DNA from: Bacteroidota bacterium
GTDB lineage: Bacteria > Bacteroidota > Ignavibacteria > Palsa-1295
NCBI GenBank assembly: GCA_030706745.1
Contig: JAUZNX010000002.1
Location: forward strand, 1-64,000
Direction of reading: 5' to 3'
DNA: 64,000 nt
Shown here: in pieces, positions 7,339 to 40,674 of the stretch
Layout of the letters: each line of letters begins with the position of its first letter
How positions within the stretch are numbered: position 1 is the stretch's first letter
Position numbers and translations under genes: made by a program
Notes under the pieces: model-generated
Seen by the model: only the letters and a program-made list of their open reading frames with translations
Database searches by the model: none
What the model was told of the DNA's origin: nothing

Positions 7339-7411
7339 CGTGCAAAAATACGGTGGTGCAAGTTGCACCTTTCTCGGGTCGGTGGGCAGTGTTGGGGTGA
7401 GGGGGAGATGG

Positions 7412-7444
7412 GGGTGCAAGCTGGAGCTTGCACCTACACGTCCG
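7412..7444 (+). repeat. REP hairpin, RAYT upstream side
   Basis: GTGCAAGCTGGAGCTTGCAC at 7414-7433 followed by CTACACGTCCGG. It is the same element as the array at 6574-6723 with one loop-base change, so the transposase gene is bracketed by direct REP copies. Confidence 0.9.
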
Positions 7445-12000: not shown

Positions 12001-15000
12001 ATGAAGACGGTACTACACCGGCATCTTGTTCGGACAATCGCGCTCGTCGCGCTTGTGGGTTGGGCGATCGTGCCGCAAGCTCACTCACAGACGTGGACGA
12101 AAGAGCATGCGCGCGCCCTGATCTTGTCAGGAGGCAATACGGATGTGGTCAATACTCTCACGCTCCAGCTATCAGGCAACACTGCGGGTGGTGTCACATG
12201 GACCCTGCCGGCTTCAAATGGTTCGAACGGTCAAGTGCTCTCGACGAATGGGTCGGGTACGCTTTCGTGGTTGACCGTACTAATCAATCCGATGACGACA
12301 TCGGGTGACCTGCTCTATGAGAATGCTACACCGACTCCCGCTCGACTGGCAGGCAACGCCACGGCGACCAAGAATTTCCTTACGATGACAAACAGCGTGC
12401 CCGCCTGGGGCACGATCGCACAGGCGGATGTCTCTGGCTTGACAACGGCAAGTTCACCAAGCTTTGCAAGTATCGCACTGACAAACACGACGAACCAACT
12501 GGTGCTTGGCACGACGCGGACAGCGACAATCACCGCTCCGACACCTGCGACATCGAGTCGGACGTATACGATTTCGGATCCCGGTGGTGACGCGAGCTTC
12601 ATCATGTCGACAATGGGGAGCGCCCAGTCAATCGCGGGCGGACTGACTTTGACCGGGACAACGACAATCAACAATTTCGGCTCATCGACAACTGAAATCG
12701 GAAATGTCGCAGGCTTCGGCAACGTGACGATTGGTAATACGGGCACGGGAACAGGAACTGTGATAATTCTCGGCGGGGCGACAGGCGCTGTGAACATCAA
12801 CAACTCGGGTGCTGGCACGACTAGCCTTGGAACCGGGACAGGAAACACATCTATTGGCAACCCAACCGGGACAACGGCCATCACCGGCTCGAACTGGAAG
12901 ATCACGACTGCGGGTATATTCCAGGGCGCTGACGCAGCGACAGGCACAAACGCGACTTTCCGAGCAGGAGATGGTAGTGCGAACGGTGGTGGCACGCTGA
13001 CAATTCGCGCGGGTGCCGGCACAGGTGCGAACGCTGGAGGAGCGGCATCACTAACTGGAGGCACTGGCGGCGCAACGGGCAGTGGCGGCAATACGTCGGT
13101 ACAAGCGGGCACGGGTGGGGCAACATCAGGTGCTGCGGGAACGCTGACGTTGCAGGGCGGCTCGGGCGGTGCGAGTGCGACGGCTGGTGGTGCAACCACG
13201 GTCATTGGTGGCACTCCCGGCGCGACAGGAATTGGTGGCAACGCAACGCTGCAAGGGGGACCGGGAGGATCGACGTCTGGCGCTGCTGGTACAGCGTCCG
13301 TTACTGGTGGAACCGGAGGTGCAAGCGCCACCGCTGGTGGAAATGCGACACTTACAGGTGGGACTCCTGGCGCAACAGGACTTGGCGGGAATGCAACGGT
13401 CCAAGGCGGAACGGGTGGCTCGACATCCGGAGCGGCCGGATCAGCATCGCTCATCGGCGGCACGGGTGGTGCCAGTGCAACGGCTGGTGGGACGGTTTCC
13501 GTAATCGGTGGTACGCCGGGAGCGACTGGTATTGGTGGAACTGTCACTGTTGCAGGTGGTGCAGGTGGCGCTACCAGTGGCGCTGGAGGAACCGTCAACG
13601 TGAATGGAGGATCACCGGCTACGACAGGAGCTGGCGGCGCAGTCTCGATCCTTGCTGCCAATGGCCTGCTTGCCGGCGCTGGAGGTAATGTGAGTATCAA
13701 TGCTGGAAATAGCGGCGCAACCTCGGGAGCGGCTGGTACTGCCACACTAACGGCTGGCAATGCTGGAGCAGCCACGGTTGCGGGTGGAGCGGTATCGATA
13801 ACGGGCGGTACCGGCAATACGACAGGTGCCGGTGGTGCAGCGTCTGTTCTGGGTGGCACGGCTGGAGGGACGGGTAATGGCGGGGCGGTAGCTGTGACCG
13901 CCGCCGCCGGAGGCTCAACTTCTGGTAATGGTGGCGCTGTGACAGTCACTGCCGGAGATGCGGTGAGCGGTGTTGGTGGAACGCTGATCGTCCGTGCTGG
14001 CAACAGTGCTGGCAGCAATGCGGGCGTTAACGCGTCGTTTACCGGTGGCAATGCAGGTTCGAGCGGCACTGGCGGTGGCGCGGTAATAGCCGGTGGTACC
14101 GGCGGAACGAGTAATGCAGCGGGAGGTATAGCCTCCGTCACAGGTGGCTTGGGCGGTTCGGGTGGCACGTCCGGGACGGGTGGAGCAGCAAGTCTTGTCG
14201 GTGGTCAGGGAGGTTCTAATGCATCGGGATCGGCGGGCGGCGCAGTTAGCATCACAGGCGGTGCCGGAGGAAGCACGAGCGGCGCGGGTGGGGCAGTAAC
14301 CGTCAGTGGCGGAACACCAACGAGCGGCGCAGGCGGTGCCGTGACTCTGCAAGGGGCAGCCGGCGTGGGGACAAATCAGAATGGAGGAAATGCAACGATC
14401 ACTGCTGGCGCTGCAACGGGTTCTGGTACTCCAGGGACGGCATCGATCACGGCGGGCGCTGGCGGGACTAACACGGCGGGAGCCACAGCCTCTATCACGG
14501 GCGGAAGCGGTAACGGTAGCGGCGCTGGCGGAGCCAGCAACGTTACTGGCGGTGCGGCAGGCACAACGGGTGCTGGTGGTGCGGTCGCGATTGCCGGCGG
14601 TGCTGGTGGTGGTACAAGCGGTGCAGGTGGTGACGTGTCGATTAATGCTGGAGATGCGACGACGACAGGTGCGGGGGGTGCTTTGACAATGACGGGGGGA
14701 ACTGGACTTCTCGCAGGCGCAGGTGGCAATGTCAGTATCACCGCGGGAAACAGCGGGGCAACCTCTGGAGCGGCTGGTACTGCCACACTAACGGCTGGTA
14801 ATGCTGGTGCAGCCACGGTTGCGGGTGGAGCGGTATCGATAACGGGTGGCACAGGCAATACTTCAGGTGCCGGTGGAGCAGCTTCTGTTTTGGGTGGTAC
14901 GGCTGGAGCGACCGGTGCTGGCGGCGCTGTAGTTATTACCGCCGCGAATGGAGGTGCAACGAGTGGTGTGGGCGGTGCCATAACAATCACGACAGGTAAC

Positions 15001-15555
15001 GGAGTAGGTTCCACTGGTACCGGTGGTGCACTCTCGTTAACTGCCGGTGACGCACCGACTGGCCAATCGAATCGTAGCGCCGGGGGCATAACGCTTGATG
15101 CTGGCAACTCTACTGGAACAGGTACCTCAACTATCACCTTTATGGTGGCGCGGGCCGGGTCAAGTGGAACGACGACAAACACCTCTGCTGCGGCAGGAAT
15201 GTACTCAGGCGGTACGCACCTAGTTGCAATGACCGCCACAAGTAAAGGAGCCAATTCTACGATGACCGCGGCAGAGATGACTGGCGGAATGATTAACTAT
15301 ACAGGCGGTGCAGGTACGTTAACCACACCTAGTGCTGCCACAATAATTGCAGGTTTGCCAGGAGTCACTGCGGGTATGGCCTTTGACTTTAGAGTGGTTA
15401 ATACTGGAAGCGGAACCGCAACTCTCACCGCTGGTTCAGGAGTCACCTTAGTCGGCACCGCTACTCTTGCAACCGCCGATATGGCGGGTTCTTGGATGGT
15501 GTTAATCACGAACACCGGAACACCGGCTGTCTCTATCTATAGGACAGCCCGATAA
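12001..15555 (+). CDS. Giant secreted Gly-rich repeat fibre protein (1184 aa)
   Basis: A Shine-Dalgarno (TAGGAG) precedes the ATG. The signal peptide spans residues 1-30 (ending PQAHSQ). Residues ~31-225 form a head (WTKEHARALILSGGN, NPMTTSGDLLYENAT, GTIAQADVSGLT) closely shared with the 15888 protein. From about residue 320 to 1035 the sequence is a glycine/alanine/threonine repeat of roughly 17-residue units such as GGNATVQGGTGGSTSGA, expected to form a long beta-solenoid or flat glycine-rich fibre. A ~125-residue end domain closes it (ending VSIYRTAR). A ~200-bp block is duplicated inside (about 13668-13870 and 14706-14905). There are almost no charged residues and no cysteines in the repeats. 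Function is unknown; an extracellular structural or ice/surface-interaction role is speculation. Confidence 0.87.
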   Translation: MKTVLHRHLVRTIALVALVGWAIVPQAHSQTWTKEHARALILSGGNTDVVNTLTLQLSGNTAGGVTWTLPASNGSNGQVLSTNGSGTLSWLTVLINPMTTSGDLLYENATPTPARLAGNATATKNFLTMTNSVPAWGTIAQADVSGLTTASSPSFASIALTNTTNQLVLGTTRTATITAPTPATSSRTYTISDPGGDASFIMSTMGSAQSIAGGLTLTGTTTINNFGSSTTEIGNVAGFGNVTIGNTGTGTGTVIILGGATGAVNINNSGAGTTSLGTGTGNTSIGNPTGTTAITGSNWKITTAGIFQGADAATGTNATFRAGDGSANGGGTLTIRAGAGTGANAGGAASLTGGTGGATGSGGNTSVQAGTGGATSGAAGTLTLQGGSGGASATAGGATTVIGGTPGATGIGGNATLQGGPGGSTSGAAGTASVTGGTGGASATAGGNATLTGGTPGATGLGGNATVQGGTGGSTSGAAGSASLIGGTGGASATAGGTVSVIGGTPGATGIGGTVTVAGGAGGATSGAGGTVNVNGGSPATTGAGGAVSILAANGLLAGAGGNVSINAGNSGATSGAAGTATLTAGNAGAATVAGGAVSITGGTGNTTGAGGAASVLGGTAGGTGNGGAVAVTAAAGGSTSGNGGAVTVTAGDAVSGVGGTLIVRAGNSAGSNAGVNASFTGGNAGSSGTGGGAVIAGGTGGTSNAAGGIASVTGGLGGSGGTSGTGGAASLVGGQGGSNASGSAGGAVSITGGAGGSTSGAGGAVTVSGGTPTSGAGGAVTLQGAAGVGTNQNGGNATITAGAATGSGTPGTASITAGAGGTNTAGATASITGGSGNGSGAGGASNVTGGAAGTTGAGGAVAIAGGAGGGTSGAGGDVSINAGDATTTGAGGALTMTGGTGLLAGAGGNVSITAGNSGATSGAAGTATLTAGNAGAATVAGGAVSITGGTGNTSGAGGAASVLGGTAGATGAGGAVVITAANGGATSGVGGAITITTGNGVGSTGTGGALSLTAGDAPTGQSNRSAGGITLDAGNSTGTGTSTITFMVARAGSSGTTTNTSAAAGMYSGGTHLVAMTATSKGANSTMTAAEMTGGMINYTGGAGTLTTPSAATIIAGLPGVTAGMAFDFRVVNTGSGTATLTAGSGVTLVGTATLATADMAGSWMVLITNTGTPAVSIYRTAR

Positions 15556-28382: not shown

Positions 28383-30050
28383 ATGAAAAGAATCTGGATT
28401 TCTCTCGCATGCGCTCTCTTCCTCCTGACGATCGCGAGCTGTCATAGCGCTCTACAGCCCAATCTGATCGCAACGGGTAGCTCGGACACGATCGCTCACT
28501 GGTCCTTCGATGGCAACACGAGGGACGTAAGCGGAAATGGACATGACGGGGTGCTTACCGGAACCACGAATTATATTGTAGATCGATTTGGACACGCCGG
28601 GAAAGCGATAGAATTGATCAGTATCAGCGGCGGGATGCATGTCCCAAGTATTCTTGATTTCGATAGCAATGATTCCTACACCATCTCGGCATGGGCTAAC
28701 GTTTCTGCGCGGGGCGGGTGGGGTATCGCATCAGGAATTTATGGATTTGGTGGTGACACCTCAGGATTCCAGGCTGACTTAATGGGCTGCGGCATCGTCA
28801 GGTCAGGTCGGACTATTTCCGCGGATGCGTGGCGGATGTTCACACTTGTGGTGGTCGCACATACGAGCGCAACGCTTTACCGCGATAGCCTCTTGGTAGC
28901 CACGAAGACCTACGGTGATTTTGCTGGCTCGCCAGGACTTACTCAACTGGATATCAGAACTGGTACATGGAGAGAGTATACCAACGATTCCTCCAGACTT
29001 GATGACATTATCATTTTGCACCGTGCAATGTCCGCTGCCGAAGTCAGCAGTCGATACCATGAAGGCGGATGGTATGCGCGTCAGGTAGATTCCTCCCCAT
29101 CTACTCCTACTTCCCGCTGGACTCAGGGTGGCACGCTCCCAGCGGGAGGCATTCAGGACATTTGCTGGATCGATACCGGACGGGTCGGAATTGCGTGTGG
29201 CCTCCACGGAGCAATTTGGCGATCCGCTGACAGTGGCAGGACCTGGCAGCAGATTCAACAGAATGCGACTCAGAAGGACCTTTACGCAGTATGCTTCGAA
29301 TCGAACGGGAACGGCGAAGTTGACGCCAGAGGAATCGTCGTAGGTGACGATGGGGCGGGCGCTGGTATCCTTTACACGACGGACTATGGATTGACCTGGA
29401 TGCCAGCCACATTGCCATCCGGCATTGCGACGCTTCGCGGAGCGATCATCAGCTTACTGAACCGCTCGGCGGTCGGTTCGGATGTTGCGGGTAACGGCGT
29501 TATTCTTTTCTCCTCGGACCCGCTGGGTGGAAAACTTTGGAAGCTCGAACGCCATACGCCAAAGCCCCTGTACGGTGTTGTAGCTTCCGGTGTGGACATT
29601 ATGCCCGGTTATCCGCTGATTGCTGTTGGCGATGGGGGACAGATCTTTGTCGCTGATTCATTGGCGATTAATGGCGATAGTAGCCGATGGAAAGACCGAT
29701 CGACTGGCACTGGCAATTGGCGTCGAGTTTCAATTTCGTCAACCTCTTTCCCCTACGAGGCCATCGCGATTTCCGACCAGGGCGCGATTCTTCGGTCCGC
29801 ACAAAGCTTGAAGGGGTATATCGGAGAAGTTTGGACGCCGGGAGGCGGGGTCAACGCGCCTGGTTCGATTTATGATGTGGGTAGCAATAAGGCTTGGGTG
29901 GCGGGGGAACGGCTACTGTTCACAATGGATGGCGGCATGACGTGGAACGATCAATCACCGACATCCGGAACATGGCTTTGCATCTCACACGGTGACGGAC
30001 CGCTCGCAATTCTCAATCAATCGGGCCAGCTCTACTTCCTGAAGAAGTAA
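28383..30050 (+). CDS. Lipoprotein with LamG domain and Ycf48-like propeller, paralogue (555 aa)
   Basis: The ATG at 28383 gives a lipoprotein leader with lipobox TIASC (Cys ~21). The longer frame upstream crosses the previous gene's terminator and is rejected. The LamG domain spans ~35-245 (IAHWSFDGNTRDVSGNGHDG), and the shared sequence RYHEGGW marks its end in both paralogues. The propeller follows after a short linker, without the ASH domain of its neighbour (RSADSGRTWQQIQQNATQKDL, VGDGGQIFV). The end differs from the neighbour's end, but a sequence matching that end follows the stop codon (see the fragment at 30050). Confidence 0.86.
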   Translation: MKRIWISLACALFLLTIASCHSALQPNLIATGSSDTIAHWSFDGNTRDVSGNGHDGVLTGTTNYIVDRFGHAGKAIELISISGGMHVPSILDFDSNDSYTISAWANVSARGGWGIASGIYGFGGDTSGFQADLMGCGIVRSGRTISADAWRMFTLVVVAHTSATLYRDSLLVATKTYGDFAGSPGLTQLDIRTGTWREYTNDSSRLDDIIILHRAMSAAEVSSRYHEGGWYARQVDSSPSTPTSRWTQGGTLPAGGIQDICWIDTGRVGIACGLHGAIWRSADSGRTWQQIQQNATQKDLYAVCFESNGNGEVDARGIVVGDDGAGAGILYTTDYGLTWMPATLPSGIATLRGAIISLLNRSAVGSDVAGNGVILFSSDPLGGKLWKLERHTPKPLYGVVASGVDIMPGYPLIAVGDGGQIFVADSLAINGDSSRWKDRSTGTGNWRRVSISSTSFPYEAIAISDQGAILRSAQSLKGYIGEVWTPGGGVNAPGSIYDVGSNKAWVAGERLLFTMDGGMTWNDQSPTSGTWLCISHGDGPLAILNQSGQLYFLKK

Positions 30051-30127
30051 TGTGGCGCATCGCCGCTCGAGACGAGCATCATATTGCCTTACTTGGCCGC
30101 TCTGTCTTGTATTGGCTCGTCCGATAA
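30050..30127 (+). pseudogene. 3' fragment of a third LamG/propeller paralogue
   Basis: Starting in the stop codon of the previous gene (TAATG), 25 codons read MWRIAARDEHHIALLGRSV and on to LYWLVR before TAA. This matches the end of the 26153 protein (TPRDAHHIALMTDRGFYYWITR). A terminator like that of the first paralogue follows at 30151. It looks like the tail of a deleted third copy, left by recombination between tandem paralogues. Confidence 0.65.
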
Positions 30128-30150
30128 TCCATTGGGTCTTCGATGCAAAG

Positions 30151-30177
30151 GCCCGCGCGATTTCGCGCGGGCTTTTT
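30151..30177 (+). terminator. Rho-independent terminator
   Basis: GCCCGCGCG (30151-30159) pairs with CGCGCGGGC (30164-30172) around ATTT and is followed by TTTTT. It terminates the second lipoprotein gene or the lost third copy. Confidence 0.9.
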
Positions 30178-30226
30178 CGCGGTGTGATGCCACCCTTTAC
30201 GCGAGCATACGTGTTATGTTCGGTGC

Positions 30227-31588
30227 GTGAGAGCCGCATCCCTAATCCTATTTTCGTTCTTGTTCGTAGGGCTGGCTGAAGCACAGTCAGTCTCTCCCGT
30301 CGCGTCATTCGAATTCGGTTCACCGCTGTTTATTAGCCGCGCACCGGGTGCATATAACCATGCGAAATTAGCGGACACTGGAGTCAGTTCGGCATTCTCG
30401 GTAGGATTGGGTGTTCAGGCAACAATGCGACTCATGGGTCCTATTGGACTCATCGGTCGCATCGAGGGTGTCTACACAACCGGAGAGTTTCTTTCGATTG
30501 CGGGTGGCGATACGATTTCTGGTCACGAATGGAAGCTTGTCGCTGAGGCGTTGGCCGAGTGGAGTGCTTCGGGGATTTCATTGCGACTTGGTCCGTGGGT
30601 TTCGGAGCGAGTACTCGGCAAGGTCAATCGCAATGGCGTCGATGTTGCCACAATGTCTGCTCCTTTCCACTTTGGCGCGATCTCCGGCTTCGCAATAGGG
30701 CCCGCTGGCTGGGCGATTCAACCCGAACTCACAGCCCGCGTTGATCTCTCGCAACTTCAGGATGCGGGAGCGAATGCCTGGAGTATTGGAATCTCTCTGG
30801 CCTATCCTATAACGGCATCTGAGCCTTCCGTGACTGCCCCTGAACGAACGGTCGAGCCCACCGCTGCTGAACCGATTGTGAAATTTCTGGTCAATCGCGC
30901 ACTGGTCAAACGTGAGGTGCCTCTCGAGCGGGTCAAACAATTTGTCAAGCAGTATACCATGAGCGATTCTGCGAACGATGCTCCCATAGTGAAGCAATGG
31001 GTTGTTGAATCCTACCATCTTCCTCAACTCGCGGTCTTGGTTGAAATGGAGGGCGGAGTCTCTGGAGACTTGACCATTTCCAAAGATACGCTCAAATTGA
31101 TGCAGACATCAATGACCGCATTCAATCGCGCGGGAGTTGCACGCGATACCACAGAACTCGACACCGATCCGGGTTTCCTCGAAGCTCTCGCTCATCTGAA
31201 CATCGGGGCCTGGAATACGTTGGTTGCAGAGTTTCGAAGTAGTCGCGGCTCCGCAGTCGTTCGGGATACGCTGATACTACCGCCAGTCGATACGAATGGC
31301 AAAGTCCGAACCGTTGAGAAAAAACAATTGCGGTTCGAATTCTCGCTCAATTATGCTGCACATGAAGGAGGAAATGAGACACTGGGGCTCCTGCTGGACC
31401 GTATGAAGTCTCTGGCCCAACCGAGCGATCGCATTACGATACTCAAACCACGAACCGCCGAGCTTGCCGAACAACAACGCGACCTGACGAAGCGCATAAC
31501 AGATGCGCTTGGCGACTATGCTAAGAATGCGGAATACCAGCTCACCGATAGTAATCCCGGGCGAATCATCGTGGTGCTCGATTCGTGA
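30227..31588 (+). CDS. Exported envelope protein of unknown function (453 aa)
   Basis: The GTG at 30227 begins a good signal peptide (MRAASLILFSFLFVGLAEAQ). Residues ~25-195 have the alternating, glycine-turn pattern of a small outer-membrane barrel (FSVGLGVQATMRLMGPIGLIGRIEGVY, WAIQPELTARVDLS). After a Pro/Glu/Thr linker, residues ~215-453 are a mixed domain with two PIVKxxV-type repeats and an end (DRITILKPRTAELAEQQRDL..GRIIVVLDS) faintly like an OmpA-type peptidoglycan-binding domain. I do not recognise the family. Its stop is eight bases from the convergent FkbM gene's stop. Confidence 0.75.
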   Translation: MRAASLILFSFLFVGLAEAQSVSPVASFEFGSPLFISRAPGAYNHAKLADTGVSSAFSVGLGVQATMRLMGPIGLIGRIEGVYTTGEFLSIAGGDTISGHEWKLVAEALAEWSASGISLRLGPWVSERVLGKVNRNGVDVATMSAPFHFGAISGFAIGPAGWAIQPELTARVDLSQLQDAGANAWSIGISLAYPITASEPSVTAPERTVEPTAAEPIVKFLVNRALVKREVPLERVKQFVKQYTMSDSANDAPIVKQWVVESYHLPQLAVLVEMEGGVSGDLTISKDTLKLMQTSMTAFNRAGVARDTTELDTDPGFLEALAHLNIGAWNTLVAEFRSSRGSAVVRDTLILPPVDTNGKVRTVEKKQLRFEFSLNYAAHEGGNETLGLLLDRMKSLAQPSDRITILKPRTAELAEQQRDLTKRITDALGDYAKNAEYQLTDSNPGRIIVVLDS

Positions 31589-31596
31589 TGATAGTG

Positions 31597-32499
31597 CTAT
31601 GATTTCGTCCGCACGCAGAGCAAATTCACTTCGCCTTCGAAATCAGTTTGTCCGGTTTTACTCTGAGGTAATTCTCTCAGTCGCTTGTGTTTTGCATCGA
31701 TGATCCGGATGGAGAAGCCGGCTTCGAGTAATGTGTTAAGATATGTCGCTCCGCCGTTTGGGTGCCGCGCATCGAGGCCTCGAGGCCAATATTCCGTCAT
31801 CAAAAATTCTGGCGGATGGAGATCGATGAGTCCTTTCATGCCGATGAGAACATCGAGTTCCGAGCCTTGCACATCCATGATGATTGCATCCGGCCTGGGA
31901 AGCCCTGCGCCGATCAGAGAGTCGATCGATCGAACCGGAACGACCACACCTTCTCGATGTGTATCTCCACGCAATTGATGATCGCCGGAGTTCGTCGGAC
32001 TCAGCGCAAGTGTGGCCATGCCATCCTCCGCACCCACCGCGCACTCGACGATCGTCACGTTATCCAGATGATTCTCGGTGACGGTCCGCCGGAGCAATTC
32101 CAGATTTTCCGGAGCCGGCTCGAAGGCTATGACACGACCGGTTTCGCCAACACAGATTGATGCAAGCGTTACGTAGTAGCCGATATTCGCGCCAATATCG
32201 AAGACGGTCATTCCCGGTTTTAGGCGCTCGCGGACAATCTCAGTTTCGAATGGCTCATACTCGCGGTACATGATGAACTGATGTCCGACGCCGCCATCTT
32301 CGGCACGCACGTAAAGATGGCGGCCATCAAGCGCGGGCGGGGCGACCTTCTGCAGCCCGACGATTCCAAATTGCGGCAAACGCCGGTGGAGACGGTACGC
32401 GAGTTTGTGATGCAACGTGTTTACCCGGTCCGAACGATCGTAACCGCGGCCGGTGCAGGCGACGAGCAGCCATCGAAAGAAGCCAAAAAGCAAGCGCAT
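31597..32499 (-). CDS. FkbM family methyltransferase
   Basis: The 300-residue protein has the SAM-binding motif I VFDIGANIGYYVTLAS, motif II VIAFEPAPENLELLRR, and the FkbM-type sequence DAIIMDVQGSELDVLIGMKG. FkbM enzymes methylate hydroxyl groups on polyketides, glycans or lipids; the target here is unknown. The ATG at 32499 is chosen over an upstream TTG at 32514. It is divergent from lgt (44 bases between starts). Confidence 0.88.
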   Translation of the reverse strand: MRLLFGFFRWLLVACTGRGYDRSDRVNTLHHKLAYRLHRRLPQFGIVGLQKVAPPALDGRHLYVRAEDGGVGHQFIMYREYEPFETEIVRERLKPGMTVFDIGANIGYYVTLASICVGETGRVIAFEPAPENLELLRRTVTENHLDNVTIVECAVGAEDGMATLALSPTNSGDHQLRGDTHREGVVVPVRSIDSLIGAGLPRPDAIIMDVQGSELDVLIGMKGLIDLHPPEFLMTEYWPRGLDARHPNGGATYLNTLLEAGFSIRIIDAKHKRLRELPQSKTGQTDFEGEVNLLCVRTKS

Positions 32500-32543
32500 G
32501 CAATACGTAACCAAACGGCAAAGCCAACCGTTTAACGGTTCGA

Positions 32544-33428
32544 ATGCACCCAGTACTCTTTCATCTCGGCCCCATTACCTTGTATAGCTTCGGTCTCATG
32601 ATGGCCGTGGCATTCCTCACTGCGAATTATTTTTTCACGAAGGAGCTCGCGCGGCGCGGCCTCGATGTCCGGATCGCCGGGCAGATCACCATCATCGCGC
32701 TGATCGGTGGAGTTGCAGGGAGTAAGATATTCTCCATTCTCGAAAATTGGCAGGACTTTGTCCATGATCCCATCGGACAGCTTTTCTCGCCTGCCGGACT
32801 TACATTCTATGGCGGGTTCCTCGTTGCGATGGCGTGGATCTATTTTTACGTCAAGCGCAAACGGCTTCGCTTTTCGCTCTTTGCCGATATTCTTGCGCCC
32901 GTCGTATTGCTTGCGTATGGTATTGGCCGGATCGGTTGCCAGCTTGCCGGTGATGGCGATTATGGAATTCCATCGCACGCGCCGTGGGCCATGTCCTATC
33001 CGCAAGGGACGGCAAAGCCGACCGTGACCGAGATCGATTATTTTCGGATGCATCCCGATGAGCGGGCCGCATGGCATTACGATTCGCTCGCCTCGATCAC
33101 GGTGGGCAAGGATGAACTTGGTCAGCGGATCAGCCGATTCGATGAAGTGGTAACCGTGCATCCCGCACCGGTCTATGAGACGATCTTCTGTCTGATTGCC
33201 TTCGCGCTGATTTGGAGGTATCGAGTGAAGTACGAGACCCAATATGGAAAGCTTTTTTCGATTACCTTAGTCGTGATGGGAGTCGAGCGTCTGCTCATCG
33301 AATTCATTCGTATCAATCCGCTCTATGCCGGGCTTTCAATGGCCCAGTGGATTTCGATTGCGATGATCCTCGCCGGTGGCGTAGCGCTGGCCCTGCGGCG
33401 TCCGCCGAGCGCGTCAGCAGCGAAGTAG
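32544..33428 (+). CDS. lgt: Prolipoprotein diacylglyceryl transferase (Lgt)
   Basis: The 294-residue inner-membrane enzyme transfers diacylglycerol from phosphatidylglycerol to the lipobox cysteine of prolipoproteins, the first step of lipoprotein maturation. Seven helices are visible. TFYGGFL is the conserved YGG segment. The Lgt signature appears as AYGIGRIGCQLAGDGDYG, with Cys-Gln in place of the usual Asn-Phe, a variant seen outside Proteobacteria. The C-terminal ERLLIEFIRIN matches the conserved E-F-R segment. An insert of about 55 residues lies between the signature and HPAPVYE. Several lipoproteins in this window are likely substrates. Confidence 0.95.
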   Translation: MHPVLFHLGPITLYSFGLMMAVAFLTANYFFTKELARRGLDVRIAGQITIIALIGGVAGSKIFSILENWQDFVHDPIGQLFSPAGLTFYGGFLVAMAWIYFYVKRKRLRFSLFADILAPVVLLAYGIGRIGCQLAGDGDYGIPSHAPWAMSYPQGTAKPTVTEIDYFRMHPDERAAWHYDSLASITVGKDELGQRISRFDEVVTVHPAPVYETIFCLIAFALIWRYRVKYETQYGKLFSITLVVMGVERLLIEFIRINPLYAGLSMAQWISIAMILAGGVALALRRPPSASAAK

Positions 33429-33555
33429 GAGCGGGTTGGCCGCCGAATTTGCGCATTCAGGGATCAGATCTGAATGCCTTCCTAACAGCTATTCCAACAA
33501 ACCAGAGAGAGCGTTTACCGGGGTACTGCAAAGATTTCACGATCATATACTTGAC

Positions 33556-34080
33556 TCACCTGACTCTATTTCGCAGATATAGAGGATTCGGCGGCATCTT
33601 AGCAACAGAAGGGGGTTCGGGGTCTGGTTCGGTTCTAGCCCGCTTCATGTATATCTTTGGTTCTCCATACCTCTCGCCGGCAAGAACGGCGGCTTCAACG
33701 TGGGTCATATCCAAATCTTCAAACCCTAGCTTACTTGTCCATTGCCCGTTTGAAAGCTGTCGCGCGGCGTGCGTAACCTCATCATCCGCGACGAAGAGCA
33801 CGATCTTCTGAAACCCATCTTCAAGTTGTCCATCGTCACACTTTTCGAATTCGAATCGCCTATATAATTCGATAAACGTGTCTTTCGAATAATTGCGAGA
33901 CAATCCTGCGGGCCAAAAGACATTCCCGTAAGCATACTCATCGGGCGGATTAGGATCTATGCGAAGCTCAATGCTACACATTGCCCATCCGAAGCAATTA
34001 TACGCCCGATCTGGCGGGCTTGTAGGGGTATGGTTCTTCTCAGTTAGTGGTTGAGATAGCCTCAACCGAACCCTGAGCAT
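33556..34080 (-). CDS. Uncharacterised protein with YNCxxWA motif (174 aa)
   Basis: The ATG at 34080 is preceded by GAGAAGG at a good distance. The protein has DRAYNCFGWAM near its N-terminus, FWPAG, then VLFVADDEVTHAARQLSNG and WTSKLGFEDLDMTHVE. This set of motifs recurs in a bacterial family of unknown function (I associate it with DUF7689, from memory). The Cys in YNC and a later His-Ala-Ala-Arg resemble a possible catalytic Cys/His pair, but that is speculation. It overlaps the end of the preceding gene by 41 bases and is the third gene of a tight cassette. Confidence 0.75.
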   Translation of the reverse strand: MLRVRLRLSQPLTEKNHTPTSPPDRAYNCFGWAMCSIELRIDPNPPDEYAYGNVFWPAGLSRNYSKDTFIELYRRFEFEKCDDGQLEDGFQKIVLFVADDEVTHAARQLSNGQWTSKLGFEDLDMTHVEAAVLAGERYGEPKIYMKRARTEPDPEPPSVAKMPPNPLYLRNRVR

Positions 34081-34531
34081 GTCGGGGACCTTCTCGGTCG
34101 TCACGCAGATATTTCTCCTTGTATCCCCATTCCCTCCAGCGACCAACAACTTTCCTAAAATCTTGTCGTTCTTCTGGTGGAACAGGATTGATTCGATTAA
34201 TGTCGAACAGAAGCGTAGCCCAAATAGGGGATGGGTCAAGTGCAAGCTCTCGAAGAAGAATCGGAACAAGCGGCTCCCCTAAGCTAACCATCCAGCGATA
34301 ATGCTGATTTATCAGTATATCCCGAAAGCGTGACGTGCCAGCAGTTTCTTCGAAAAGTTTTTGCTGGAATTCGATAAATAGATTTTCAGTAGTGATGTCA
34401 ATTTCAGACTTATCAAAACTGAAAAACACCATCGCTTCAAATGGATTATGTTTTCCGGGTGTTTGAATTCCATAGTAGTTGCGCCTCGCAACCCTGAAAG
34501 CGGTCTTTGCTCTTAGAGTCGAATGAATCAT
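34040..34531 (-). CDS. Uncharacterised protein, middle gene of cassette (163 aa)
   Basis: The core SLGEPLVPILLRELALDPSPIW followed by INPVPPEERQDFRKVVGRWREWGY matches a common family of small bacterial proteins of unknown function with the same PLLLREL and NPVPPE landmarks. That family is, to my memory, often found beside YNCxxWA proteins as here. No signal peptide or membrane segment. It starts one base after the stop of the upstream 231-residue gene (TAATATG) and overlaps the next by 41 bases, so all three are translationally linked. Confidence 0.75.
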   Translation of the reverse strand: MIHSTLRAKTAFRVARRNYYGIQTPGKHNPFEAMVFFSFDKSEIDITTENLFIEFQQKLFEETAGTSRFRDILINQHYRWMVSLGEPLVPILLRELALDPSPIWATLLFDINRINPVPPEERQDFRKVVGRWREWGYKEKYLRDDREGPRHAQGSVEAISTTN

Positions 34532-34532
34532 A

Positions 34533-35228
34533 TTAGGCCTCTACCTCGTCAGGTGTTAGGTAATCCAATTTGAAACCCCTGATTTTATTTATCAGAATCT
34601 TCTGTTTTGTTGTTGCACGTTCGATCGCCGCCTGCATTGCTCTTAAATCGGCTGTATCGAGGGCAACATAAATATCGTCCTCAATATCTTTACCAAGATT
34701 GCAGCGTAGATGCAGGGTGTGGTAGAGCATCCATGCGTGCGGCTCTTCAGCAGGGTCCTCCCCAAAAATCGGACGTAAATCAGTTATTATTCGGACCGTT
34801 CCGAATGTGCGGTTATGATCGGTAAGAACGTTTAGCGCTTTTGAAGAAAGTACAAGCTGCGGATTGTTTAAGAAAACCGATAATCGTGACTCGTATTTTT
34901 CCGCATCTTCGCGCTTGAGGGTCGTCAGGCCTTGCTGTAAAGATTGTCCGACAATGTCCCTGCTTGCATCCGCTGCTTTAATCCGGTATCTATCCATAGC
35001 GGATAAGAGACTCTTAATAGATACGATTAGAGTCTTAAGCGTCTCGCGTGGAATCACATTCGTCAGCTTGGCGATATGCTCAATGATCGCCAACGCCTTA
35101 AGATCCTTCGGAGCAGAATTTAAGGCAGTCTGAATTTCGCCGAAGGCTTTATCGTCGGCAACGAAAATCGCTTCAAATGCAGCTAAATCCTCGGGGGGTA
35201 TCCCTTGAAATCTCAGTCCCTCTGCCAC
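34533..35228 (-). CDS. Uncharacterised soluble protein, first gene of cassette (231 aa)
   Basis: The protein is mostly helical in appearance, with no signal peptide, cysteine cluster or membrane segment. Landmarks are FQGIPPEDLAAFEAIFVADD at the start, TDLRPIFGEDPAEEPHAWMLYHTLHLRC near residue 150, and a lysine-rich end. The middle-to-C-terminal part (TVRIITDLRPIFG..) resembles segments seen in uncharacterised genes of accessory regions. I cannot name a family. It begins the three-gene cassette and is divergent from an XRE regulator about 500 bases away. Confidence 0.7.
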   Translation of the reverse strand: MAEGLRFQGIPPEDLAAFEAIFVADDKAFGEIQTALNSAPKDLKALAIIEHIAKLTNVIPRETLKTLIVSIKSLLSAMDRYRIKAADASRDIVGQSLQQGLTTLKREDAEKYESRLSVFLNNPQLVLSSKALNVLTDHNRTFGTVRIITDLRPIFGEDPAEEPHAWMLYHTLHLRCNLGKDIEDDIYVALDTADLRAMQAAIERATTKQKILINKIRGFKLDYLTPDEVEA

Positions 35229-35730
35229 TGTGCTTTTTGAAATTGTGTTCTGAAAAGTACTTAGACATACAAATATACGGCAATCGGCAAGCCAAAGTTG
35301 CTTAAAGGCTCAGGCAAAGAGTCAGTTGTCGCGTTTTTGTGGCCTCTTTCGCAATCTTTTTTGCTTCTCCAATATTTTAGACCTTCTCTGGCGACAAGGA
35401 GATGAGACGCTTCAGGAACGATTCGAAACGCTGATGTGGAGCCGCGCCCTCGTCCTATTCAACATTTATCTATGCGCTTTCTGCTTTCAGCCAAGATTCA
35501 GGAGTTGTTCGTGCGTGAGTCTGCGTCCCGCTATTGTTTGAAGAACCAGCATGAAACGGGTTGCCGTCATCAGTCTTGCGATTGTTGAACCTAAAGGAAC
35601 GGACGCCTTTAGAAGTGTACTTGGCTGAGTCTGATGGCTTCGCATATATGTAAAACAGCGAATTTGGCGAGATGCTGAGGAATTCGCTTTTATGTGAAAT
35701 TGTTTTTGAGCCAAACCGGTTCTTAGAGTC
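35229..35730. other. AT-rich divergent intergenic region
   Basis: It contains no supported gene. The composition is more AT-rich than the flanks, consistent with promoters for the minus-strand cassette and the plus-strand XRE pair. A short minus-strand frame around 35487-35732 lacks family resemblance and is probably accidental. Confidence 0.4.
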
Positions 35731-35955
35731 ATGGCACCAGCGGCGAGACTATTCCAGAAAAAACGGGGGGCTGTAATTGATCGGATTCGGAAGCTTTTGG
35801 AAGAAAAGAAGATGAATCAGCGCGAGCTCGCCAACAAAGCGGGAATGCGCGATTCCGTTGTAAGCCGAATCCTTGAGGGCCAAACGAACCTCACACTGAA
35901 GACAATTGCGCGGATTGAGCACGCGTTAGGGGCCAGCCTGATTAACGTCCCCTGA
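35731..35955 (+). CDS. XRE-family HTH regulator (74 aa)
   Basis: Almost the whole protein is one helix-turn-helix domain of the Cro/C1 type: MNQRELANKAGMRDSVVSRILEGQTNLTLKTIARIEHALG. It lacks a partner domain. The next gene starts five bases after its stop, so both are in one operon. It may regulate that operon and possibly the divergent three-gene cassette. Confidence 0.88.
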   Translation: MAPAARLFQKKRGAVIDRIRKLLEEKKMNQRELANKAGMRDSVVSRILEGQTNLTLKTIARIEHALGASLINVP

Positions 35956-35959
35956 AAGC

Positions 35960-36718
35960 ATGGATTGGCTTCTTCGTCCCATTATTAGCGCCTATCAGTC
36001 GGTTGTCAATTCCCTGACCGGCCCTAATGCAGTAAGCAATTCGAACGCCGTCATTGCGGTGGCTATGGTCCTCAACTTTGGAGCATCCATCTTATTGTGG
36101 TGGGCGAACAGGCGCACTGCCACGACCACACGAATGATATTTCTAAATCAGTTCAAACCGATAATCGGAGTACAGCAAGAGATTGAATGGGGGCCGGGCA
36201 AAGGGCAGCATCTTGAAAAAATGATTATGCTGGGTACGACACTTAAGAATTCAGGCCAAACTGCCGCCAGTATATTCGACGTTGCCTTCCATCTATTGCT
36301 AACGATTAAGGGGTCACCGCCAATGAAGGACGAATGGCTTCACTTTGGTCCGACAGACGCCCGATTTACTCTTCCTCCTGGCGAGACGAAAAAGTTTGAT
36401 GTGCCGGTCTTTTTCATCGGGCCGGTAGAAGATACCATTGCTGGACACAATCCACTTAAATATCGCATAGAAATAAGTTATCATGGTATGGCAAACGATT
36501 ATTATTGCCATATCGAAGAAAGAGAGTATGATTATGTACGAGAGAGATTCGTGGTTCGTGCCAATTACACCGTGGAGTATAGCCGCTTCCAGCGTGCTTA
36601 TGGAGGCGGTCGAAAGCGCATTGGCAAACTCTTCAGAAGGGTCAGATCGTATTATCGCCGCAAGCGCGCTGAAAAGGAAAATGAGATGAAGGCAACTCCA
36701 ATAGCCAGTGAGAAGTAA
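35960..36718 (+). CDS. Membrane-anchored protein of unknown function (252 aa)
   Basis: One membrane helix lies near residues 28-48 (NAVIAVAMVLNFGASILLWWANRR). The following ~150 residues look like a beta-sandwich (GTTLKNSGQTAASIFDVAFHLLL, FTLPPGETKKFDVPVFF, YRIEISYHGMANDYYC). The tail is strongly basic (GGGRKRIGKLFRRVRSYYRRKRAEKE). It is cotranscribed with the XRE regulator. The family is not recognised. Confidence 0.72.
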   Translation: MDWLLRPIISAYQSVVNSLTGPNAVSNSNAVIAVAMVLNFGASILLWWANRRTATTTRMIFLNQFKPIIGVQQEIEWGPGKGQHLEKMIMLGTTLKNSGQTAASIFDVAFHLLLTIKGSPPMKDEWLHFGPTDARFTLPPGETKKFDVPVFFIGPVEDTIAGHNPLKYRIEISYHGMANDYYCHIEEREYDYVRERFVVRANYTVEYSRFQRAYGGGRKRIGKLFRRVRSYYRRKRAEKENEMKATPIASEK

Positions 36719-37640
36719 GAAGAGTCCAAAAACCTAGTAGCAAACGGGAGTTCACTCTCCGTCCCGCCTTTCCCTCTGGTGAGCAAAGTACATAATTCCG
36801 AAATATTTGCGAAATTCATCGCGTCCCTACCAGGACTCTGCTCCTCATTTCAATCGCTATCCGGTGACTGGCGTCACCGGCTACCAATCCGCCGCGGCGG
36901 TCGTGCCTGCCGGCGCTGGTGCCCAAGCGAGGGCGCGAACTGGCCGTAGGGACGTGCTGCGCACGTCCTTTCTCGGAATACCACAGACACTCGGGTCCAG
37001 CCGTAGGGACGTGCTGCGCGCGTCCTTTCTCGGACTACCTCAGACATTCGGGTACTACCAGCAGTCAGGACGTGCGCGGCACGTCCCTACAATAATATTC
37101 AAAAATTCATCGAAAAATTGAGTTGCCGCGGGTGTCGAACCTTGTTATAATAGGGGGAAGGGGTCCACTTCAATTACGAGTTACGAATGACGAATTACGA
37201 ATAGGACGCAAATATCGGCATTTTTGCAATGGGCCAAACATGGCGGGCTAAGGGACACCGTGATTCATGAAAAACAAACAAAAAAGATACTCAAAATTCT
37301 TTGCGGTGTCTCGGGGCAAGCGGTGAAGGTAGGAAGTGTCACCTACCGAATGCGAGGATGAACGACCGCTTGTTCGAGAGCCAATTTTGCCAATGGTCCC
37401 AAGGTCGCGCTACTGAAAGCGGTGTCGTGTCAAAGTGGTACTGGATAAAGTGAATGGCTGAGTTAAATCGAAATGGAATCAGGCACAATGGTTGTGACGA
37501 ACCAATCGCCTATCCATCGGATGCGCGTCGTCGCTGGCGGCCGCCTGGCAGCCGCCAGGCAGCCGCGCCTTGCAGCCGCATGGAAAAGGCGAGAATTTGT
37601 ATTTCAACCATTTTCCAACCCCAATCAACTCATAATCATC
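36719..37640. other. Long non-coding stretch with REP-like repeats
   Basis: No convincing gene is present. Contents: a half REP copy GCGTCCCTAC (36821-36830), a CCGGTGAC/GTCACCGG hairpin (36861-36880), the REP-like cluster at 36946-37090, a short-period TACGAATGACGAATTACGAA tract near 37183-37202, and a GCCTGGC/GCCAGGC hairpin near 37545-37562. Frames such as 36807-37121 translate repeats and are not genes. Confidence 0.5.
36946..37090. repeat. Second REP family: GTAG-GGACGTGC hairpins
   Basis: Two direct copies at 36946-36968 and 37003-37025 and one inverted copy at 37068-37090. Each is GTAG followed by the stem GGACGTGC, a 3-base loop and GCACGTCC (or GCGCGTCC in copy 2). The direct copies sit in a 57-base unit that includes a shared TTTCTCGGA tail. 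The GTAG head and hairpin match REP architecture, but no transposase is nearby. Confidence 0.75.
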
Positions 37641-37889
37641 ATGGCACAAAATCAACCGAATCAGAATCCATCACGTGACAATCGCAGCAATTCTTCGAAT
37701 CAGATTCCCTCGCGCAGCGGCTCTCAGAGTGGCACGAAGGACACCTCCCGAAGTGGCTCGCAGAGCGGCTCGCAAAGCAGCTCGCAAAGCGGACGGCAAG
37801 GTTCACAGCAGAGCAATCCAAACCGTGGATCCCAGTCGAACCCATCTCAAACGAACAAGACCTCTCAGGGTAGTTCAATGAACGAGTAA
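37641..37889 (+). CDS. Ser/Gln/Asn-rich disordered protein (82 aa)
   Basis: Starting at ATG 37641 (MAQNQPNQNPSRDN), the protein is nearly all Ser, Gln, Asn, Gly and Arg, with repeats such as SGSQSGSQSSSQSG. It has no hydrophobic core. It is followed at once by a KGG-domain gene, so it may be part of a stress-protein cluster. A real gene is likely because it is clean, in-frame and clustered, but function is unknown. Confidence 0.6.
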   Translation: MAQNQPNQNPSRDNRSNSSNQIPSRSGSQSGTKDTSRSGSQSGSQSSSQSGRQGSQQSNPNRGSQSNPSQTNKTSQGSSMNE

Positions 37890-37933
37890 TGTTCGCGATT
37901 CGCGCGGTCCTCACTAACGAAATGGAGAACACT

Positions 37934-38332
37934 ATGGCCAATACGAGTAAACGTGGATTTGCATCAATGAACCAGGAGAAACAGCGGTGGATCGCATCGA
38001 AAGGCGGCCGCGCGGCGCATGCCAAAGGCAAGGCGCACGAGTGGTCGCCCGAGGAAGCGCGAGCTGCTGGACGTAAGGGAGGCGAGAGCCGTGGAAGTCG
38101 TAACGCTCCACGCATGAACTATGTATCAGAATCCGGCGCAAGCCATACTGGTATTGGTGAAGGAGTGCTTGGTAGTGCCAACGTGATAGGAGGTCTTGCT
38201 TCAGCATTTCTGGTGGACGCCGGAAGTTCGCTGAGGGGACAGACGTCTAATCAGGCACAACCAAACCAGTCGCCACTGGCACGGCTTAGTCCACTTGCAT
38301 CGGCAACCTCACCAGCCAATACCGTTCGGTGA
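37934..38332 (+). CDS. KGG-domain stress-type protein (132 aa)
   Basis: A GGAG Shine-Dalgarno precedes ATG 37934. The N-terminal half is the KGG repeat domain: RGFASMNQEKQRWIASKGG, then AAHAKGKAHEWSPEEARAAG and RKGG. Such domains occur in general-stress proteins (YciG-like/GsiB-like) that are small, hydrophilic and disordered. The C-terminal half is Ser/Ala/Gln-rich without known domain. Its stop overlaps the next gene's frame. Confidence 0.82.
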   Translation: MANTSKRGFASMNQEKQRWIASKGGRAAHAKGKAHEWSPEEARAAGRKGGESRGSRNAPRMNYVSESGASHTGIGEGVLGSANVIGGLASAFLVDAGSSLRGQTSNQAQPNQSPLARLSPLASATSPANTVR

Positions 38333-38334
38333 GC

Positions 38335-38592
38335 ATGCCAATGGATCGTGAACGCTCAAGAGGCATCGCGCAACGGGAAAGTGCACCGGTCGAGTCACAA
38401 TCTGATTCGGCACGTCGCACCCCGGTAAGTGATCAGGCGGTTGACCGTGAGGTTGATGGCGCGGTTGACCGAAAGGTCACTTCCGAACCTTCGCGTCGCG
38501 GGGCGCCTCCGGCCGGGCTACAGGGCAAGGTGCGAACACTGTCAACGCCACCCGGTGAACCCTATAACGATCCAGCATTAGGCCGGACGTAG
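38335..38592 (+). CDS. Small hydrophilic protein (85 aa)
   Basis: The start may be ATG 38335 or 38341, or a GTG at 38329 that overlaps the KGG gene's stop. The product is charged and disordered (SDQAVDREVDGAVDRKVTSE) with no known domain. Its position directly after two disordered stress-type proteins supports a three-gene unit. Confidence is limited by length. Confidence 0.5.
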   Translation: MPMDRERSRGIAQRESAPVESQSDSARRTPVSDQAVDREVDGAVDRKVTSEPSRRGAPPAGLQGKVRTLSTPPGEPYNDPALGRT

Positions 38593-38687
38593 TGGGCGTC
38601 TGGCTCACCGGTTTCATTTCTTGGTGTCGGATTGCGAAGACTTGCGTCCGCCTATGATTCCAACGGGATCAAAGGCGGGCGCTTCAT

Positions 38688-39380
38688 TTATGTCTTCAGA
38701 CCATATCCCACGCCGCGCTCGCTGATGATCAAGCGATCCTTCTCTTCCTGGCCGGAATCGATTTTTTCTCGAAGCCGCTTGATGTAGACATCGATGACGT
38801 TCGAACCCATGGTGAAGGAATAGCCCCACACATGCTGCGTGATAACCGAGCGCGAAAGGATCCGGCCCTTGTTCCGCATCAGATATTCGAGCAACTCATA
38901 TTCTTTTACGGTAAGCGGGATGTGCTGCTCCTCCTCGCTACCGGGCTTCTTCCGGCGCGCCGTGTGTGTCACGGTGTCGAGCACGAGATCGCGAGAGACG
39001 AGTTGTGTTTTCTTCTCGATATCCGAACGACGTAGCAGGGAACGCACTCTGGCGGAAAGCTCTTCGAAAAGAAATGGCTTGGTCAGGTAATCGTCGGCCC
39101 CGGCATCGAGACCTTCAACCTTTTCACCAATCTCGGTTTTGGCGGTCAGACAGAGAATAGGAACATTGCGCTTAGCTGCGCGAACCTCCTTGATGACCTC
39201 GATGCCCGATTTTTTCGGCATCATGATGTCTGTAATGATCAGATCATATGCTTCCGAAAGGGCTCGCTGTAGCCCTTCTTCGCCATCGAGCGCGACATCG
39301 ACGTCGTACTTCTCTTCGCGAAGTCCCTGTTCTAGAAAGCGAGCGACTTTTTTTTCGTCCTCAATTACGAGTATGCGCAT
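38688..39380 (-). CDS. OmpR/PhoB-type response regulator
   Basis: The receiver domain has acidic pocket residues EDE (7-9), the phospho-acceptor Asp51 in DLIITDIMMP, and the LTKPF lysine. A winged-helix DNA-binding domain follows (HIPLTVKEYELLEYLMRNKGRI, VIDVYIKRLREKID, SERGVGYGL). It is full length at 230 residues. No sensor kinase gene is adjacent, so the partner must be encoded elsewhere. Confidence 0.94.
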   Translation of the reverse strand: MRILVIEDEKKVARFLEQGLREEKYDVDVALDGEEGLQRALSEAYDLIITDIMMPKKSGIEVIKEVRAAKRNVPILCLTAKTEIGEKVEGLDAGADDYLTKPFLFEELSARVRSLLRRSDIEKKTQLVSRDLVLDTVTHTARRKKPGSEEEQHIPLTVKEYELLEYLMRNKGRILSRSVITQHVWGYSFTMGSNVIDVYIKRLREKIDSGQEEKDRLIISERGVGYGLKT

Positions 39381-39660
39381 AGCTGCGAAAATTAATTAGT
39401 AAGAGAAGAAAACAACCCCGGTAAGGCAACGCGCAAGCTCCGGAAGTAGTTTGCCATTACGAAGCCGATGTTGATTCTCATTGAAACAATGCAAAAACCG
39501 TGCTTCCTGCAAGATTCGCACTATTCGGCTAGGCCTTTAGGCCCGGCCGGAAGATTTCTTTAAGCTATGGAGTGATTTTTAGTACCTTTTAAGCTTCCCT
39601 CAGCAAACGCACGAACAACTTGATGAAGCTTACTACCGCTACAAAAATAATCAAAGATCG

Positions 39661-40674
39661 GTGGCTACCAACGAAATTATGAGATCCTTCATGAATGACG
39701 GTTCCGACTCGCTGCATGAAATGGAATGGCAGCTTCTATCGCTCGTGCCTGCCACCCCGGAATCACTTTATGTCCCGATCGGCGACGTTCTTCGCGCCGG
39801 TGGCAAACGAGCGCGGCCCATGCTCACGCTACTCACGTCAGACATTGCCTCTGCGAATTCAAAATCGCGCGAAGTAACGAATGCGACCCTCAATGCAGCT
39901 TGCGCCGTCGAATTGCTCCACACCTTTACGCTGGTCCATGATGACATCATGGACAATGCCAGTACACGAAGAGGTCTTCCTACATTACACACCACGTATG
40001 GGGTCAGCACGGCAATTCTAGCCGGCGATGGGCTCATGGCATTGGCAAACCAAGCTCTGGCAATGATCCAGTCACCATTGTTAGGCCGCATTGTTACCGA
40101 ATTCGCGCTGGGCTTCCGCGCCGTTTGCGAGGGGCAGGCACTCGATGAGGAATTCGAAGGGCGAAAGACTATCGCGATTAGTGAGTATATCGACATGATC
40201 GATCTCAAGACCTCTAAGGTTTTTGAGCTTGCGGCTGTGCTCGGTGCTCTCGCCGGAGGGGGGCAGTATGTTGAAGAAGTACGAGGATTTGCGCATCATT
40301 TGGGACTTGCATTCCAGATCATGGATGATCTGCTCGATCTGACTGCGAATGAACGCACCTTCGGAAAGACACCCGGTGGCGATATTCTCGAAGGCAAAAG
40401 GACATTTCTTTTTGCAGCTGCTATGGAGCAATATTCCTCGCTTGCTGGAGAAGATCTTGCGCTGCTGGAGAAGGTTCGGGACCGACGGGCAACACCAAGA
40501 GATATTCCGTTGATGCAAGGGCTATTAGAGCGACTCGGAGTGTTGGAGCGTGCACGAGCTGCCGCACTGGGTGAAACTCAGAAGGCCGAGGCATCACTGA
40601 ATGCCATCCCGGAATCCGAGGCTCGGGAGCGCCTTCATGCATTTGGCCGTTCATTCCTGGGACGTGATCACTAG
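39661..40674 (+). CDS. Trans-polyprenyl diphosphate synthase
   Basis: The protein has both aspartate-rich motifs: DDIMD (94-98) and DDLLD (222-226), plus GGKRARPMLTLL, which are the binding sites for allylic and isopentenyl diphosphates. It makes a C15-C40-type chain for quinones, carotenoids or carrier lipids. The product length cannot be read from sequence. GTG 39661 gives 337 residues; ATG 39679 is an alternative start. Confidence 0.93.
   Translation: MATNEIMRSFMNDGSDSLHEMEWQLLSLVPATPESLYVPIGDVLRAGGKRARPMLTLLTSDIASANSKSREVTNATLNAACAVELLHTFTLVHDDIMDNASTRRGLPTLHTTYGVSTAILAGDGLMALANQALAMIQSPLLGRIVTEFALGFRAVCEGQALDEEFEGRKTIAISEYIDMIDLKTSKVFELAAVLGALAGGGQYVEEVRGFAHHLGLAFQIMDDLLDLTANERTFGKTPGGDILEGKRTFLFAAAMEQYSSLAGEDLALLEKVRDRRATPRDIPLMQGLLERLGVLERARAAALGETQKAEASLNAIPESEARERLHAFGRSFLGRDH

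Follow-up and report, generated by a model that had tools for sequence, protein, structure and literature searches.

The window, meaning the whole 64,000-nucleotide stretch of DNA analysed here, carries a compact cassette of three open reading frames on the minus strand (Table 1). Genes 1 and 2 are separated by a single base, 34532, and genes 2 and 3 overlap by 41 bases, 34040-34080, in agreement with the one-base gap and overlap reported by a first-pass annotation of this DNA. If gene 3 began instead at a TTG at 34269, its N-terminus would be longer. All three frames are homologous to proteins found in the same order elsewhere, which takes the arrangement beyond chance, and the 41-base overlap of two small genes matches the layout of a type II toxin-antitoxin pair. 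The last protein contains both motifs originally assigned to it, YNCxxWA (here YNCFGWA) and THAARQL. In the middle protein, referred to below as MID, the expected NPVPPE is present, and the second motif reads PILLREL, not PLLLREL.

Table 1. Features of the three-gene cassette in the window, and examples of a second gene pair at other loci
Feature	Position	Strand	Remarks
Gene 1, COMMD-like; helical N-terminal domain and three-strand/helix COMM-like domain	34533-35228	-	231 aa, GTG start
Gene 2 (MID); variable N-terminus, conserved C-terminal ~100 aa	34040-34531	-	163 aa, ATG start
Gene 3, DUF7689 (PF24738); predicted papain/NlpC-P60-like fold	33556-34080	-	174 aa from ATG at 34080
Cys29 codon (YNC), proposed nucleophile	33994-33996	-	Alignment and model; start of helix 29-33
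His104 codon (THAARQL), proposed catalytic base	33769-33771	-	Alignment and model; strand 101-108
His127 codon (DMTH), possible third residue of the active site	33700-33702	-	27/27 aligned proteins; putative role
Low-GC stretch with cassette and neighbouring XRE/membrane pair	33450-36750		47.0% vs 54.4% in the window
Pair B examples	L025 6327-7222; L027 6676-7765; L032 3154-4025; L102 2255-3411		

The cassette has a GC content of 46.8%, compared with 54.4% for the window, and 10 of 623 sliding windows of cassette length are equally low or lower. In the sister genome G164, from the same genus, the stretch around lgt aligns to window 28-43 kb only at lgt itself, indicating either that the cassette was inserted as accessory DNA or that the region around it has been rearranged. 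On the opposite strand, upstream of the cassette, an XRE gene (35731-35955, plus strand; Pfam HTH_3, E 1.9e-12) is followed by a plus-strand gene at 35960-36718 whose product has a hydrophobic segment at its N-terminus. REP-like arms (36943-37090) lie past this pair, ~1.7 kb from the cassette. The XRE protein of the 35731-36718 pair, which shares the low-GC stretch, matches PADLOC PDC-M64C at 6.6e-18; together with the membrane-anchored protein it may form a separate accessory module. The inverted REP-like arms downstream of this pair contain GTAGGGACGTGCTGCGCACGTCC, and a window ORF at 6724-7419 resembles a REP-associated transposase. Two further window regions, 3828-6425 and 12001-15555, encode long repeat proteins, collagen-like (GxT/GPQ repeats) and glycine-rich, that may belong to a surface-structure cluster. 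Rfam gives no match in window positions 30000-40000, and promoter and terminator scans show no excess over shuffles.

Gene 1 encodes a bacterial member of the COMMD-like proteins. It exceeds the cut-off of no Pfam family; a PDB sequence search with the protein alone finds 9q6a_A, 'COMMD-like protein MBK5214510' (E 9e-7, residues 10-211), and a profile of 17 relatives matches 9q6a with E 2.3e-39, the similarity to MBK5214510 extending over most of its length. In the AlphaFold model, built from 17 sequences (pLDDT 90.3, pTM 0.76), seven helices within residues 12-141 precede strands at 142-154, 165-177 and 183-190 and a helix at 192-218, that is, a helical N-terminal domain followed by the three strands and helix of a COMM domain. 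Foldseek places 9q6a first (9q6a_B, E 3.9e-10, TM 0.71/0.77), followed by chains of the human CCC and Commander complexes, such as 8f2r_G (E 1.1e-5, probability 1.00, TM ~0.3). VIA gives 9q6a_B a Z of 14.7 (rmsd 3.4, 210 residues), 8f2r_J a Z of 7.1 (rmsd 10.2, 188 residues) and the COMM domain of COMMD9, 6bp6_A, a Z of 6.9 (rmsd 4.1, 77 residues); the last two values fall within a range that unrelated folds also reach, yet ranks 1 to 6 are all COMMD chains. The model thus has the fold of eukaryotic COMMD proteins, with a whole-chain TM of ~0.3 and domains that are differently oriented or have diverged. Apart from 9q6a, the one entry that the profile finds among PDB sequences is 9za1 ('COMM domain-containing protein', E 0.54), and kinship with the eukaryotic COMMD family would accordingly rest on the modelled fold. 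One candidate COMMD-like locus, L017 (E 8.4e-4), was dropped after it gave no match to the COMMD-like profile.

Gene 3 belongs to DUF7689 (PF24738), with a Pfam E of 2.1e-26 and 93.4 bits against a curated cut-off of 22.6. Its AlphaFold model (22 sequences, pLDDT 84.8) has a papain-like fold in which Cys29 opens a helix and His104 sits in a strand of the sheet, which is the Cys-His site that the first-pass annotation had proposed seeking by structure prediction. The top Foldseek matches are NlpC/P60 peptidases, weak at E 0.07 and up, and papain-like enzymes fill nearly all of the 50 VIA rows, at low Z (best 5.7, rmsd 3.4 over 93 residues). Across 27 aligned proteins, Asn28, His104, Ser116, Lys117, Gly119 and His127 are invariant, and Cys29 is kept in 26 and replaced by Ser in L064. 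No papain, NlpC/P60 or CHAP family of Pfam matches window gene 3 up to E 1, and L011, a distant DUF7689 relative, shows weak CHAP similarity (0.0034, below the cut-off). The model and the conserved residues suggest that gene 3 is a papain-like cysteine enzyme with a corresponding putative activity.

MID matches no Pfam family, including no DNA-binding domain in the window protein, and its comparison with PDB sequences gives nothing convincing. In the searches with cassette proteins, a candidate match to CyaF 9k2f (E 0.054) was absent from the profile search. The closeness of MID to DUF7689 is nearly constant. The two genes adjoin on the same strand at 43 of 48 deduplicated DUF7689 loci, several of which are near relatives, so that these counts are not independent events. 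The loci come from the window's own phylum, the Nostoc phylum, the Rhodocyclaceae phylum and viral contigs; duplicates were removed from the set, as were L009 and L010, which are interrupted. MID also adjoins DUF7689 at the two additional loci, L093 and L094. The co-occurrence of the two families given in the first reading holds, and the opposite outcome, families mostly apart in core-genome contexts, was looked for in the gene neighbourhoods and not encountered. MID is missing at L004, L006, L007, L008 and L011. The copies in L006 and L008 (737-1345) are shortened, and their AbiEi/AbiEii-like neighbours hint at defence islands in these genomes. Some relatives carry interrupted copies, as decayed or chance neighbours without function might; reading frames, gene order and catalytic residues conserved across phyla contradict such an origin for the cassette, which is highly improbable.

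Within MID, the C-terminal part is constant and the front is variable. The MID of L059 has DUF433 fused at its N-terminus (E 2.6e-22), the one such case among 10 MID proteins scanned; this is presumably an antitoxin-type domain. The MID of L069 is fused to a stretch of the COMMD helical domain (profile positions 56-133, E 9.7e-7). A signal-peptide-like N-terminus appears at 7/7 TIGR04255-headed loci and 0/7 COMMD-headed loci, in a scan in which the L061 row was out of frame. At L040, L041, L046, L078, L080, L081 and L082, the TIGR04255 gene overlaps MID and the signal-peptide-like N-terminus ends near an AxA motif; if this segment is real, the TIGR04255-class MID would be exported or membrane-bound. 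The general idea that the MID N-terminus is matched to the first gene was tried and holds for the TIGR04255 class only, where 11 of 15 pairs are alike at a Z of at least 4. At the same threshold, none of 15 pairs are alike within the COMMD class and 1 of 187 between classes, so a matched interface is indicated only in the TIGR04255 class; this comparison was made without L061, L029, L062, L069 and pieces shorter than 20 residues (L040, L073). The N-termini of L061, L062, L067 and L058 look RHH-like and Phd-like, an identity that was set aside, with no Pfam support where scanned and empty plasmid searches.

An exported product would also be expected of an effector-immunity pair, in which DUF7689 is a peptidoglycan hydrolase used against rivals and MID is its immunity protein. 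The signal-peptide-like front of every TIGR04255-class MID fits this scheme, as do the nearest folds of gene 3, those of NlpC/P60 proteins and of the amidase effectors of type VI systems, Tse1 and Tae3 among them. It is nevertheless very unlikely: no COMMD-class MID has such a front, secretion-marker genes were not noticed beside the loci read, and the DUF433 fusion argues that MID is cytosolic.

The first position of the cassette is exchangeable. A recognised first gene precedes MID and DUF7689 in 20 of the 43 pairs: TIGR04255 in seven, a COMMD-like gene in five, a ~95-aa family in four, a DUF3467-like gene in three (a weak assignment, 0.019) and DUF6941 in one. No head is recognised in the other 23, and the MID-DUF7689 pair can therefore stand without a COMMD-like partner. 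TIGR04255 genes also head pair-B-like genes (L087 gene 2, E 3e-5; L089 gene 3, E 7e-5) and others. Since different heads precede one pair and different pairs follow one head, head and pair are combinable. A HEPN assignment in L085 was weak (0.0043), below the cut-off, and was rejected.

These counts bear on a simpler explanation, in which MID and DUF7689 make up a simple toxin-antitoxin pair of two genes and the COMMD-like, TIGR04255 and other heads are independent passengers or transcription neighbours that take no part in controlling it. The unheaded pairs agree with it, and so do cyanobacterial MID proteins with an N-terminal domain of their own, such as DUF433, and the unlike N-termini of COMMD-class MID proteins. 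It remains unlikely given that a COMMD-like gene stands directly before MID at seven loci spread over several phyla, the two genes being -4 to 60 bases apart, that COMMD-like and TIGR04255 genes each recur as heads of several different pairs, and that the L069 MID is fused to part of a COMMD domain.

COMMD-like genes were found at 22 loci: seven with MID and DUF7689, nine with a second pair termed pair B, four with other partners, one alone (L028) and one cut by a contig end (L036). The COMMD-headed MID-DUF7689 cassettes are those of the window, Nostoc (L029), a cyanobacterium (L031), Chlorobium ferrooxidans (L037), a viral contig (L044), L093, where the third gene is interrupted, and L094. 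Pair B, the commonest partner, consists of a 'DWDGEGS ... PDGSIDLxW' protein and a ~130-aa 'GMSxNWxKY ... NRAHSDVxG' protein (Table 1); the pair B of L032 has no Pfam match. The other partners are co-directional with the COMMD-like gene. In L026 they are two small proteins with hydrophobic segments (membrane proteins by eye), and in L092 they are unnamed genes, for which a retropepsin or DUF5678 identity found no support. On the viral contig L051 (4947-6762), a COMMD-like gene is accompanied by genes for a 151-aa protein and for a Fic protein (HPFLNGNGRMGR, Pfam 8.8e-8). In Schlesneria (L034, 5623-8367), the COMMD-like gene is followed by a 315-aa protein and then an MBL-fold protein with weak likeness to the Avs1a and 6A-MBL anti-phage proteins.

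In the window's own phylum, DUF7689 occurs in 11 of 296 genomes; the counts are 11/214 in the Nostoc phylum, 2/249 in the Rhodocyclaceae phylum and 0/140 in the Polyangium phylum. The families had been described as widespread, and their distribution is instead sporadic. COMMD-like genes are rare, in 4/296 genomes of the own phylum by single-sequence search, 3/223 by profile, and 4/119 in the phylum that includes the Acidobacteria record L032; on viral contigs, a repeat scan with a larger alignment returned the same three COMMD-like loci. The expected accessory-type settings are borne out, as DUF7689 cassettes are often phage-borne. On the viral contigs L041, L042, L043, L074, L076, L078 and L082 they lie among terminase, portal and neck/tail-completion genes, and the COMMD-headed cassette of L044 stands beside a phage DNA polymerase gene, settings assigned by a scan of 10 flanking proteins chosen from these contigs. 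In L102 (G120), a COMMD-like gene and pair B adjoin integrase-, excisionase- and replication-protein-like ORFs, as judged by eye. The three window proteins have no PHROGs match and match 0 PADLOC 2.0.0 families up to E 1. Plasmid and phage records searched with the window proteins and those of L016, L058 and L041 also gave no match; the queries were single distant sequences, and the result is not evidence of absence.

Copies among phage packaging genes, together with the deubiquitinases and processing proteases included in the papain-like VIA rows, could mean that DUF7689 serves phages as an accessory enzyme or is a protease for processing or deconjugation without toxicity, and that MID is its maturation partner. 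This is quite unlikely in view of the sporadic distribution, the interrupted copies in relatives, the copies that, judged by eye, seem to belong to a chromosome and not to a phage, and the Fic and MBL proteins that take the place of DUF7689 behind the same head gene.

The preferred reading, to which we give an even chance, is that the cassette represents a modular three-gene conflict operon, resembling toxin-antitoxin-chaperone (TAC) systems without SecB and serving in toxin-antitoxin control or abortive infection. It draws on the small overlapping genes, the near-constant MID partner, the putative enzyme, the exchangeable parts, the DUF433-type fusion of a single MID, the COMMD helical stretch in the L069 MID and the phage-borne cargo positions. 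In such a module, DUF7689 would be the effector, or toxin, acting as a papain/NlpC-P60-like cysteine enzyme, and MID would be the antitoxin or adaptor that binds and silences it through the conserved C-terminal domain. The COMMD-like protein would serve as an oligomeric scaffold that stabilises or controls the MID-DUF7689 pair, and it may sense a trigger, for example phage infection. The three genes with their predicted folds, the near-constant MID-DUF7689 pairing, the exchangeable first gene, COMMD-like genes at the head of other pairs and the phage or mobile-element settings are observed, whereas toxicity, neutralisation, sensing and an anti-phage role are what we infer. Several results count against the tripartite reading: the modest fold scores of DUF7689 (best Z and best Foldseek E alike), the 5 loci without MID, the 23 pairs without a recognised head, the lack of resemblance among COMMD-class MID N-termini, the restriction of DUF433 to one MID and the empty PADLOC comparison.

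That the head gene recurs in front of other pairs points to a modular system, for toxin-antitoxin or anti-phage action, that is so far undescribed. Taken further, the COMMD-like protein could be the interchangeable sensor-scaffold of combinatorial bacterial and phage-borne immune operons (head x adaptor x effector), ancestral to the COMMD ring of the eukaryotic Commander complex, a proposal that is rather unlikely. The COMMD-like nature of gene 1 and the exchangeable first slot had both been missed by the first-pass annotation, which is otherwise partly upheld. COMMD-like genes head exchangeable pairs whose third members include a protein with a predicted papain-like fold, a Fic protein and an MBL protein, and some of these sets lie on viral contigs. 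Should they be conflict modules, growth and plaque assays of a simple kind could test what COMMD-like proteins do in bacteria, a role would emerge for DUF7689 and for MID, the partner without a name, and TIGR04255, DUF6941 and DUF3467-like proteins would share a common context.

In the open-licence literature searched, the modular operon is undescribed, and no mention was found of DUF7689, TIGR04255, DUF6941 or 6A-MBL; DUF3467 is named in one paper. A 2023 structural paper in Cell gives COMMD proteins no homologues in Bacteria or Archaea, hence an origin in the eukaryotic stem, and calls the CCC complex 'of enigmatic function' (PMC10187114). It was the only source in point for bacterial or prokaryotic COMMD in the open-licence texts available, and a description outside them may exist; the structure of a COMMD-like protein from a bacterium entered the PDB in 2025, and bacterial COMMD-like proteins are therefore not new in themselves. 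That protein, MBK5214510 from Flavobacteriaceae (PDB 9q6a, 9q6c and 9q6d, released 2025-10-01), is like gene 1 in fold and in near-full-length sequence, at about 20% identity; it is octameric, whereas gene 1 is known here from a monomer model. The eukaryotic COMMD proteins of Commander and CCC (8f2r, 8p0w, 6bp6) have the same helical N-terminal and COMM domains and are the next-best fold matches behind 9q6a, but give no convincing profile sequence match.

NlpC/P60, CHAP and papain-like cysteine peptidases share the fold of the gene 3 model, in which the Cys begins a helix and the His lies in the sheet that comes after it; in contrast to them, gene 3 stays below the Pfam thresholds, and no signal peptide or cell-wall domain was noticed. 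For the cassette as a whole, the closest working precedent is, by analogy, TAC. TAC systems are described with exchangeable toxin and antitoxin families, a variable antitoxin extension and a SecB-like chaperone that protects the antitoxin; in CmdTAC, the toxin is released when the chaperone is bound by a capsid protein of the phage (PMC5105189, PMC11618068). Gene 1 has no SecB match and a COMMD fold instead, and TIGR04255 and DUF3467-like profiles give no SecB match among PDB sequences, so SecB kinship was rejected; lacking SecB, the cassette is not a TAC member. The 22 COMMD-like loci carry several kinds of pair, which would parallel the third gene shared by different TAC toxin and antitoxin families if these pairs are toxins and antitoxins. 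TAC/CmdTAC resembles the cassette in its three genes and exchangeable families and includes an anti-phage example, while its third partner is SecB-like; in the present cassettes, that position is held by a COMMD-like protein or another family (PMC11618068, PMC5105189).
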